In this document: positions 1 through 6,576 of the stretch, piece by piece
How positions within the stretch are numbered: position 1 is the stretch's first letter
Layout: each line of letters opens with the position of its first letter
Assembly: GCF_003574315.2 (NCBI RefSeq)
Contig: NZ_AP025739.1
Coordinates: 4,650,001-4,714,000, forward strand
Length of the DNA stretch: 64,000 nucleotides
Source of the DNA: Capsulimonas corticalis
GTDB taxonomy: Bacteria > Armatimonadota > Armatimonadia > Armatimonadales > Capsulimonadaceae
Direction of reading: 5' to 3'
The notes under the pieces: generated by a model
Databases searched by the model: none
Told to the model about the DNA's origin: nothing
What the model saw: the letters and a program-made list of their open reading frames with translations, nothing else
Made by a program: the position numbers and the translations under genes

Positions 1-209
1 TCAGCGCCATGACCACGGACCGGCCGTACCGAAAAGGGCTGGAGTGGGAAGCGGCTCTGAAAGAGATCCGCGCCAACTCAGGAACGCAATTCGATCCGGC
101 GATGGCCAACGCGTTTTTACGGGCGGCGGCAAAACGGGTTCCACAGGTTCTGCGGCCGACGAACGGAGCGGCTGAGATCCTTCCGGCGGAATCCGCCAAT
201 AAAGCATAA
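1..209 (+). CDS. HD-GYP domain protein, C-terminal fragment
   Basis: The reading frame is open from the window edge (codons begin at base 3) and ends with TAA at 207-209, so only the last ~68 residues are present. The segment SAMTTDRPYRKG, followed by GTQFDP about 20 residues later, is the typical C-terminal signature of HD-GYP phosphodiesterase domains, which hydrolyse cyclic di-GMP or related dinucleotides. The catalytic HD and GYP residues lie upstream of the window. A short Ala/Pro-rich tail follows the domain. Whether a receiver or other sensor domain precedes it cannot be seen. Confidence 0.8.
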   Translation, partial: SAMTTDRPYRKGLEWEAALKEIRANSGTQFDPAMANAFLRAAAKRVPQVLRPTNGAAEILPAESANKA

Positions 210-319: not shown

Positions 320-1783
320 ATGAAGGCTCCGTTGTATTTAGGCGCGCTTGCACATTTCGAGAAACAAACGCTTGTCACGATCGCCTCCGGGGTAACGTGC
401 GCGTATTTGGGAGACGAACGCAATCTGCGCGAATTTCTGGTGGCGGACGAAACGGCGAAGACGCTGCAGGAAGCCGGTCACACGGTTTTCACTTTACTGG
501 TCGACGACAGTCTCGATCCCCTGAACTATCGCCAGCTGCGCGTCGCGGTCAACAAAGACCCTCGCCTGATGGCGCGATGCGAGCACTGGTGCGGGACGCC
601 GATCGCGCACCTGCCGGATCCCTTTGAGTGCCACGCGTCGTTTGCCGAGCACTACGAGCATGTCCTGCTCGACCGTCTCCACCGGCTGGATTGCCATCCG
701 ACACTGGTCAGCACGTCCAAACTGTACGAGCGCGGTCTGTACGATCCCTATGTGAAGCTTGTGCTGGAGCGCCGTGAGGAGATCCTGAGCTTTTTGGCGG
801 ATCGCTTCCCGAATTATCATCCGGAAAAGCTGTTCCATCCGATCTGCCCGGATTGCGGCGTCATCGTCGACACGCAGATCGCGCGTGTCAGCGCGACCGA
901 CTATCAGGTGTCGTGCGAGCGCTGCTCCGCGCAGCGCGTCTTGCCGCTTGAGCAGGTCAAGGGGAAACTCAACTGGAAATTAGACTGCGCCGCGCGCTGG
1001 GCTCACTTCCATATCGACGCCGAGCCGTTCAGCAAGGCTTATCTGGAGCCGATCGCCGGCAGCTTCGCCGTCGCCAGCGCGCTCAGCTTGGAGTTCTTCG
1101 GCGGCAAGCCCGTGCTGCCGCTGCACTTCGGCACCGTCCAGCAGGATCGCGACACCAGCTATTTGCTGGCCGAATCCTTCCCCACGAGCGCTCTGCGCAG
1201 CCTCTTCGTCGAAAAGCCTTCGTCGGATCTGCACATCTCGCGTGAGCTGATCCTGACCACGGCGTCGCGCTACGAAGTCATGCCCGGTCTTACCTTACAA
1301 GACTTCACCAAGCAGCTATTGCCGGTCTGGCTCTTGACTCCGGAGACGCTCGACCCGGCGCAGCGCGAGCTGGTTTCGCGCGGGATGGCCTTCAGCCGAA
1401 ATTTTCTTGATGTCGAAGTCAAGCTGCATTTGCCGACTCGCGAACGCATTCAGGGGGAACATCCCTTTGTGCTTTCCGCCGTGCGTCACCTGATCGCCTC
1501 GGTGGTGGAGATGCGCGAAGCGGAAGATCTGTCCATCGACGTGTTTCAGCGCACTCTCAAGAACGTGATTTCCGGTCTGGGGCACGAGAAGAAGGTCGTT
1601 CTGACGGGGCTTCGCGGCATCGTCGGCCAGGATCATGGCCTTCCTGTCTCGAAGTTTCTTTACACGCTGCCCGTCGACTACTTGCGAATGCTACAATATA
1701 TTCTGGATCTGCATTTGGAAAGCGCCGGCGTTCTTCCGATATCCGGAGCCGCTTCGTTCGAAAGCCAGCTTGCCGCGGCTTAA
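320..1783 (+). CDS. class I lysyl-tRNA synthetase (LysRS1)-like protein without HIGH and KMSKS motifs
   Basis: 487 residues, close to the usual LysRS1 length. Residues ~93-165 follow the LysRS1 catalytic core closely (GTPIAHLPDPFECHASFAEH, then a SKLYERG segment). Cysteine pairs at 176/179 and 199/202 occupy the position of the family's zinc insertion, and KLNWKLDCAARWAHF (~216-230) matches the RWxxDWPMRW region. The HIGH-type sequence expected after residue 25 is replaced by YLGDERNLREF, and the KMSKS loop expected near 275-290 is replaced by QQDRDTSYLLAES. Ordinary aminoacylation is therefore doubtful. LysRS1 is mainly archaeal and uncommon in bacteria. The gene lies 28 nt upstream of the porin-like gene. 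A paralogue with a new role is the favoured reading; an active but divergent enzyme is not excluded. Confidence 0.75.
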   Translation: MKAPLYLGALAHFEKQTLVTIASGVTCAYLGDERNLREFLVADETAKTLQEAGHTVFTLLVDDSLDPLNYRQLRVAVNKDPRLMARCEHWCGTPIAHLPDPFECHASFAEHYEHVLLDRLHRLDCHPTLVSTSKLYERGLYDPYVKLVLERREEILSFLADRFPNYHPEKLFHPICPDCGVIVDTQIARVSATDYQVSCERCSAQRVLPLEQVKGKLNWKLDCAARWAHFHIDAEPFSKAYLEPIAGSFAVASALSLEFFGGKPVLPLHFGTVQQDRDTSYLLAESFPTSALRSLFVEKPSSDLHISRELILTTASRYEVMPGLTLQDFTKQLLPVWLLTPETLDPAQRELVSRGMAFSRNFLDVEVKLHLPTRERIQGEHPFVLSAVRHLIASVVEMREAEDLSIDVFQRTLKNVISGLGHEKKVVLTGLRGIVGQDHGLPVSKFLYTLPVDYLRMLQYILDLHLESAGVLPISGAASFESQLAAA

Positions 1784-1811: not shown

Positions 1812-2798
1812 ATGTCGTATACTCGTTCCGCAATCTTGGCCGGGCTCCTTGCCGCAATCGGCCCATGCGTTCACGCGCAGACCAGCTCCACGACCCCGGG
1901 AGCAACCGCTCCCGAAGCTCCCGCCGGCGCCGCGGCGCCGGCGGCTCCCGCCGTCCCGCCGCAGGCGGATGCGCCCAAGTCGCCGCCGCTGAAGATCGGG
2001 ATCGACGCCTATCTGGGTCTCTCTGACCAGCAGGGGAATCGGACGCTCTACGACGGCGCCTGGATCGGTTTCGGCTCCGCTTACCCCTCGGTGGTTTATG
2101 GCCGCTGGGATCCCAGCGACTCGGAGACCGTGAAAGCCTCGATCTCCATCGGCAAGCTCTACCGGGCCCAGAACCGAATTATCGATCAGCCGGTGGAGGC
2201 GTACTATCAGAAGCGCCTGGGGCGCAGCTCGATCACGGTCGGAAAGTATTATGTGCCCTTCGGCGTGCAGGAGTGGGAGTACGAAACGCGTCCAGGCGTG
2301 ATGTACCAGTACGATGACGGCGCGAATACAGTCGCCGCGTCCGTGAATTACAATGACAACCGCCGGACAACCAACGGCTATTTGCGTGTCGGCCGCAAAT
2401 TCAGCGAACGTCTCACCTTCGGCCTTTCGGCCGGAACGGGCGCGGGGTTTTCCTTCGGAACCGACCACAACAGCGGATTCGGCGCCGACGCCACGGTTAC
2501 GTTTAACGCCTGGCAGCTTGTCAGTGAGTATAACGATTACCGCACGCCGGACAATCTGCACTTCCGGTTCGCGCACGGCAAGCTTTTTTACAACGCCTGG
2601 GGACCATGGAAGCCGTACATCGGCGTTTACAGCTGGAGCGATGAGGCGAAGGAAGAGGGCGACTTCCGCTCAACGGTCGTCGGCGTCGGACGCCAGGTGA
2701 CGCCGTGGGCTTATCTGGATGGAGGATACTCGTCCACATCCGTCGCGCATGTCGCGTGGGTGGAAGCGCACATTACCTGGGAGGCTGGGGTGAAGTAA
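1812..2798 (+). CDS. porin-like outer-membrane beta-barrel protein
   Basis: 328 residues. The start at 1812 gives an N-terminal signal peptide (hydrophobic core SAILAGLLAAIGPCVHAQ) directly after the upstream gene. Residues ~24-60 are Ala/Pro-rich, like a periplasmic linker. The rest consists of alternating amphipathic strands rich in Tyr, Gly and aromatic residues, for example VGKYYVPFGVQEWEYETRPG and a closing WVEAHITWEAGVK. This pattern is typical of an outer-membrane barrel and implies a diderm envelope. There is no recognised substrate signature. The frame stays open upstream of 1812, but that part has no signal peptide. Confidence 0.6.
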   Translation: MSYTRSAILAGLLAAIGPCVHAQTSSTTPGATAPEAPAGAAAPAAPAVPPQADAPKSPPLKIGIDAYLGLSDQQGNRTLYDGAWIGFGSAYPSVVYGRWDPSDSETVKASISIGKLYRAQNRIIDQPVEAYYQKRLGRSSITVGKYYVPFGVQEWEYETRPGVMYQYDDGANTVAASVNYNDNRRTTNGYLRVGRKFSERLTFGLSAGTGAGFSFGTDHNSGFGADATVTFNAWQLVSEYNDYRTPDNLHFRFAHGKLFYNAWGPWKPYIGVYSWSDEAKEEGDFRSTVVGVGRQVTPWAYLDGGYSSTSVAHVAWVEAHITWEAGVK

Positions 2799-6358: not shown

Positions 6359-6576
6359 GCCCTCACCCTCGTTCCCTCTCCCGGAGGAGAGGGATGTCCA
6401 AAGGTCAGCGCCCGATCATGGCTTCGCTTGAAAGTCCCGATCCCCAGGGCGTTGCCCTGGGCTCAAATTATGACGCCCCGTTGGGGCTAAAGACTATTGT
6501 GTCGACCACGTGAACCACGTTTGGGTCCGATCCCTGGACATCCCTCTCCTCCGGGAGAGGGAACGAGGGTGAGGGC
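6359..6576. repeat. MITE-like element with perfect 42-nt inverted repeats
   Basis: Arms at 6359-6400 and 6535-6576 are perfect reverse complements and flank a 134-bp core. Each arm is itself partly palindromic (CTCTCCCGGAGGAGAG). The core holds two more hairpins (CCAGGGCGTTGCCCTGG and GCCCCGTTGGGGC) and no gene. The right arm ends on the base before the hisS stop codon. It may act as a transcript 3'-end structure for hisS. It fills the rest of the gap between hisS and the Rrf2 promoter. Confidence 0.8.

Follow-up and report, generated by a model that had tools for sequence, protein, structure and literature searches.

The locus at positions 320 to 1783 of the 64,000-nucleotide stretch of Capsulimonas corticalis DNA analyzed here (the window) raises the question of what a protein built like a class I lysyl-tRNA synthetase (LysRS1) might do once the ATP-related elements of that enzyme have been lost. 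The initial annotation had read its product as a LysRS1-like protein lacking both class I signature motifs and repurposed for another task. The gene is intact:

320..1783, + strand: LysRS1-like protein P0001, an open frame of 487 amino acids with a dN/dS of 0.066 against its G014 orthologue.

P0001 matches PF01921 (tRNA-synt_1f) over residues 17-274 with 135.9 bits (E 2e-39; cut-off 27), and PF01921 is the sole Pfam family matched at E 0.001 by all six full-length members of the family defined below. Its score against the NCBIfam equivalog TIGR00467 (lysS_arch) lies below the cut-off (121.1 bits versus 147.55), and a PDB sequence search returned the class I LysRS structure 1irx as the sole relative with a significant score. 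The AlphaFold model of P0001 has a mean pLDDT of 72.9, with most of the catalytic half between 70 and 95 and a poorly modelled segment at residues 271-366 (pLDDT <50). The top fold match of this model is again 1irx (Z 26.1); the alignment takes in 356 residues and covers almost the full length, although the rmsd of 15.6 means that domain placement in the model is not reliable; the VIA alignment to 1irx spans model residues 3..463. The C-terminal helical region of LysRS1, including its conserved Gly, is retained. The PF01921 match and the fold match to 1irx bear out the resemblance to LysRS1 noted initially and, by sequence, P0001 is a homologue of class I LysRS.

A profile search of 291 Armatimonadota genomes identified seven loci (G000, G014, G003, G021, G019 and G073, with G074 represented by a fragment), and the identity of the full-length members (n=6) to P0001 ranges from 45 to 84%. 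Profile matches in G042 and G025 were rejected as family members, both being canonical LysRS1. In a phylogeny with canonical LysRS1, the six members form one clade (support 100/100) whose stem branch measures 2.57 changes per column, and the family is monophyletic. The branching within the clade tracks the kinship of the genomes, with the Capsulimonas pair joined by G003 from the same order, then by f3 and then by f15; this pattern is consistent with an old gene passed on vertically and lost many times, and an ancient transfer may be an alternative origin of the distribution. For the Capsulimonas pair, which is the closest one (P0001 and its G014 orthologue), the dN/dS of 0.066 is accompanied by a dS of 1.6, and the values indicate that the family is under purifying selection. 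As judged from these genomes, it descends from LysRS1 as one clade, known to date from scattered Armatimonadota only.

We compared the motifs of the six full members with those of 18 canonical LysRS1 proteins, drawn from the phylum, from plasmids and from 12 genomes sampled outside the phylum. The HIGH-type His and Gly, like the KMSKS-type loop, are found in 18/18 canonical proteins and in 0/6 family members. The canonical HIGH block, ASGxxPSGxxHxGNxRE, pairs without gaps with the family segment ASGVTCAYLGDERNLRE, in which the HxG[NTSAH] motif is replaced by DER[NS] in all six members and is preceded by T-C-A-[YF]-L-G. Column by column, the canonical Pro, Ser and Gly become C27, A28 and Y/F29, and the His and Gly of the motif itself become D32 and R34, with the Asn kept in five of the six. 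The earlier statement that YLGDERN replaces HIGH is thus essentially correct; the columns that strictly correspond to HxGN read DERN in the ungapped block. The absence of a KMSKS-like loop likewise extends to the whole family: the site is about 5-7 residues shorter and variable in 6/6 members (QQDRD, KMERH, KMEKQ, GMERQ or SMPKE). The Asp of the canonical G-K-D-[HL] is Ala or Ser in the family. The ATP-related elements lost are therefore HIGH, KMSKS and the GKDH Asp, while the catalytic core is largely kept, together with a zinc ribbon.

Two candidates for displaced motifs were considered and rejected. A shifted HIGH, 'HFGT' (P0001 residues 269-272), sits at the strand that precedes the KMSKS site, and G003, G021 and G019 do not preserve it; a shifted KMSKS, 'KMER', is not conserved among the members. 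No shifted HIGH exists that would leave ATP-binding residues intact at other positions, as the initial annotation had considered.

Conservation in the family is distributed over the following features:

389..451, + strand: former HIGH loop, residues 24-44; 17/21 positions invariant across all six members (hypergeometric p 1e-6).
494..559, + strand: residues 59-80, LL-x-DD-xx-DPLN-x-RQLRVAVNKD; 18/22 invariant (p 3e-7).
845..925, + strand: four-Cys zinc-ribbon-like insert (C176, C179, C199, C202); all Cys invariant in six members.
959..1063, + strand: residues 214-248, KLNWK-x-DCA-x-RW...EPF-x-K-x-YLEP; 21/35 invariant (p 1e-4).
1130..1171, + strand: site where the KMSKS loop is missing, shorter and unconserved; 4/30 invariant over residues 271-300.

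The consensus of the former HIGH loop is G-x-T-C-A-[YF]-L-G-D-E-R-[NS]-L-R-E-x-L-V-A-D-E, with D32-E33-R34-N35 at the HxGN columns and the invariant T26 and C27 in the loop that follows the first strand. Residues 59-80 keep the canonical D63 and D66 and carry a family-specific 4-residue insertion; residues 214-248 keep the canonical K, W, RW and E, and their G-K-D-H segment has become K-[AS]-Y-L-E-P. Canonical LysRS1 residues kept by the family include D63, D66, G92, P94, Y136, K216, W219, W227, E235 and G440, and the new invariant stretches (TCA-x-LGDER-x-LRE, RQLRVAVNKD and K-x-YLEP) lie within or next to the former ATP site. Since invariance is concentrated where the motifs vanished and the KMSKS site is unconserved, the ATP site appears to have been replaced rather than eroded. 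The loss of the motifs and the long stem branch are what a decaying pseudogene would also show, but this reading, to which we assign a negligible probability, is contradicted by open frames in six genomes, a dN/dS of 0.066 and the hyperconserved former HIGH region.

The presence of a second lysyl-tRNA synthetase bears directly on whether the family could still serve translation. The genome containing the window (7.65 Mb, a single contig) has one strong PF01921 gene, and it also encodes a complete class II LysRS (604 bits). A second, weak PF01921 match in this genome was judged by its sequence to be ValRS. The initial annotation would have been undermined by the absence of any other lysyl-tRNA synthetase, and the intact class II LysRS found here makes lysine attachment to tRNA-Lys by the LysRS1-like protein dispensable. 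Class II LysRS scores over the cut-off in five carrier genomes (G000, G073, G074, G021 and G019); G014 has only a fragment in an assembly that is 69% complete, and none scores above the cut-off in G003, with an assembly that is 80% complete. The two genomes of the phylum with canonical LysRS1, G042 (L013) and G025 (L014), have no class II LysRS over the cut-off, and represent a natural contrast to the carriers and a case of replacement within the phylum.

In class I synthetases, the Gly of HIGH packs against the adenine. With three ATP-contacting elements gone and an Arg at this Gly position, we infer that the LysRS1-like protein does not charge tRNA-Lys, a task that would fall to the class II LysRS. 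The overall LysRS1 architecture is retained and other class I enzymes can tolerate altered HIGH motifs; PMC12945691 cites by title one such synthetase whose signature motif is altered. A still-active back-up lysyl-tRNA synthetase with unusual motifs is nevertheless very improbable in view of the joint loss of both motifs and the GKDH Asp, the Arg at the HIGH Gly and the class II LysRS. Both LysRS classes coexist in some organisms, for example Bacillus cereus and Methanosarcina, where class I works with class II (PMC1475646, PMC2916919).

The second fold match of the P0001 model is BshC (4wbd; Z 17.3, 249 residues, rmsd 3.6), mainly over the shared Rossmann core and not covering the C-terminal part, and it ranks above all synthetases except LysRS1, with GluRS, GlnRS and ArgRS at Z 12-14. 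Together with the high conservation of the new loop, this match could point to a BshC- or MshC-like ligase that couples an amino acid with a small acceptor molecule through chemistry retaining part of the class I core, perhaps with a nucleotide site newly built from DERN and RQLRVAVNKD. We consider such a ligase rather improbable, however, as P0001 has no sequence match to the BshC or MshC families and the core fold by itself yields Z 12-14 with many synthetases. No cyclodipeptide synthase (CDPS) appears among the 50 fold matches listed for the model, an absence that carries no weight against a CDPS-like fold.

The genomic context of the family comprises constant and variable partners. Those mapped in or beside the window are:

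1..209, + strand: 3' end of a membrane GAF-GGDEF-HD-GYP gene of about 912 amino acids (genome C1:4647471-4650209).
1812..2798, + strand: porin-like beta-barrel protein gene, 28 bp downstream of the LysRS1-like gene.
L016:4818-6206 (genome C1:4645138-4646526): ALDH-like gene with the catalytic Cys kept.

A membrane GGDEF-HD-GYP gene lies directly upstream of the LysRS1-like gene, on the same strand, in 7/7 loci. The initial annotation had proposed to check the conservation of the porin-like neighbour, and porin homologues are found downstream in G014, G003 and G021 and, in G019, on the opposite side of the cluster (the G003 copy matches Porin_4 weakly, below the cut-off), but the most constant partner is the GGDEF-HD-GYP gene. 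Its GGDEF, HD and GYP motifs are intact in five of the sensors adjoining the family, G003 being the exception. In G003, the sensor preceding the LysRS1-like gene is truncated, its membrane half being joined to the very end of HD-GYP (L017:4604-5383), and a full-length sensor adjoins the methyltransferase on another contig (L068:1341-4172); the truncation may be a genuine deletion or an assembly error. The genome containing the window also encodes a sensor paralogue (L070:4542-7220; C1:3249541-3252219) that has no LysRS1-like neighbour and adjoins an asparagine-synthetase-like gene.

On the other side of the sensor gene lies the divergently oriented ALDH-like gene, next to which a methyltransferase and an EamA transporter are variably found; the methyltransferase, the DMT (EamA) transporter and the porin are the variable partners. 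Among 291 genomes, 6/7 carriers have the ALDH subfamily, as does G075, where the contig breaks off within the sensor gene (Fisher p 6e-11), and the G074 contig ends before the ALDH position. The N-methyltransferase, of the NNMT/PNMT/TEMT family, occurs in 5 carriers and in no other of the 291 genomes (Fisher p 1e-9), being missing in G073 and not found in G074. Since these p values ignore the kinship of the genomes, they establish linkage and not independent gains. Among solved structures, the methyltransferase is closest to PNMT, NNMT and INMT, which all N-methylate small amines; its match to GntF of guanitoxin biosynthesis passes the cut-off, and it is the sole protein of the module so matched, so that no product can be inferred. 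The LysRS1-like gene forms a conserved module with the GGDEF-HD-GYP and ALDH-like genes.

Several minor observations concern the same neighborhood. In the ALDH-like protein, Asp replaces the usual general-base Glu within a DG[DE]GN motif that is conserved in four members. G019 carries a second NNMT-like methyltransferase copy away from the module (G019:C202:174231-174980, L069). No convincing promoter or terminator was found between the sensor gene and the LysRS1-like gene, and no riboswitch or other RNA was found in the upstream genes near the cluster. Two sub-threshold RNA matches at about 6.4 kb both lie outside the module: Acido-Lenti-1 at window positions 6443-6488, upstream of an Rrf2-like gene (31.9 bits versus 37), and whalefall-1 at 6359-6395 on the opposite strand.

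The sensor gene adjoining all seven loci raises the main rival to an enzymatic function, a ligand- or tRNA-sensing role. A regulatory pseudo-synthetase could bind lysine, a ligand resembling it or uncharged tRNA-Lys, and signal to the adjoining c-di-GMP enzyme, much as a HisRS-like domain serves GCN2, and the loss of ATP chemistry with retention of core residues and of the C-terminal helical region would suit such a protein. We regard this role as possible but on balance unlikely: the newly conserved polar residues D32, E33, R34, K239, Y241 and E243 and the ALDH and methyltransferase partners look catalytic or metabolic, and the membrane domain of the sensor is more widespread than the family (26 genomes at E 1e-20) and mostly occurs without a LysRS1-like protein.

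Taken together, the loss of the parts that grip ATP, the new strictly kept residues and the signalling and small-molecule partners argue that the protein probably has a new job. The claim of a repurposed synthetase is thus well supported by motif loss, an intact class II LysRS, a single origin, purifying selection and the new loop, whereas the suggestion of antibiotic or lipid chemistry finds no support. The ALDH, N-methyltransferase and transporter neighbours suggest a role in small-molecule chemistry and, from the retained core residues and the partners in small-amine chemistry, we infer, with less confidence, a function involving lysine or a related amine. We tentatively favor, at somewhat less than an even chance, an ATP-independent enzyme in a small-molecule pathway, acting on lysine, a lysine-like amine or a lysyl group from Lys-tRNA. 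Such an enzyme would handle the free amine without ATP, or would take the lysyl group from Lys-tRNA in a manner resembling that of cyclodipeptide synthases and SbzA with their aminoacyl-tRNAs; the ALDH-like and methyltransferase proteins would perform the other steps of the pathway, and the c-di-GMP protein would sense or control it. Against an enzyme, the partner common to all loci is a signalling gene, which a regulatory role fits equally; the methyltransferase is not universal among the carriers (G073, G074); and residues 271-366 are poorly modelled. The complete scheme, in which a new LysRS1-derived enzyme family would draw lysine from the Lys-tRNA that the class II LysRS supplies, or handle free lysine without ATP, and hand it on to the ALDH-like protein and the N-methyltransferase for the synthesis of a signal or a secreted amine, to be sensed by the adjoining c-di-GMP protein, is speculative and unlikely to hold in all its parts.

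LysU, PoxA and LysX derive from class II LysRS, and a LysRS1-derived family with a side function would contrast with them. These three are the LysRS relatives named in the excerpted text of the 2022 review of synthetase duplicates, which mentions no LysRS1-derived one and lists HisZ, PoxA, GluQRS, MshC and LysX as synthetase-like proteins outside translation (PMC9437257). The family resembles the latter in the co-option of a synthetase scaffold, combining synthetase descent with the loss of catalytic signatures in the presence of a separate canonical LysRS. With LysRS1 (lysK; 1irx) it shares lengthwise homology by fold, the PF01921 domain, the zinc ribbon and the C-terminal helical region, but it lacks HIGH, KMSKS and the GKDH Asp, is found alongside class II LysRS and has new invariant loops. 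AcmF, SbzA and cyclodipeptide synthases are synthetase relatives without ATP chemistry that use aminoacyl-tRNA (PMC12945691). The likeness of the family to CDPSs and SbzA, a class I-like core that would draw on ready-made aminoacyl-tRNA instead of ATP activation, is at most an analogy of function; the family has no CDPS Pfam match and keeps the LysRS1 architecture, and the use of aminoacyl-tRNA through a catalytic Ser is a CDPS feature. A search confined to an open-access library turned up no account of a LysRS1 derivative lacking both motifs, and the linkage of LysRS1-like loci to a GGDEF-HD-GYP gene, an ALDH-like gene and an N-methyltransferase is new here. The family would give a clear before-and-after view of an ATP site replaced by another conserved site, and its link to c-di-GMP and to small-amine chemistry makes its function directly testable, a cultured relative being available.

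Outside the phylum, relatives were detected in 12 of the genomes sampled (a sample, not a census), and all were canonical LysRS1 with HIGH and KMSKS. Two scans of viral contigs yielded no relatives. A separate scan of genome contigs, with poorly conserved peptides of a single protein as queries, was able to recover close kin only. Of five plasmid matches, the four inspected, all but the Pseudorhodobacter match, were HIGH-bearing LysRS1.
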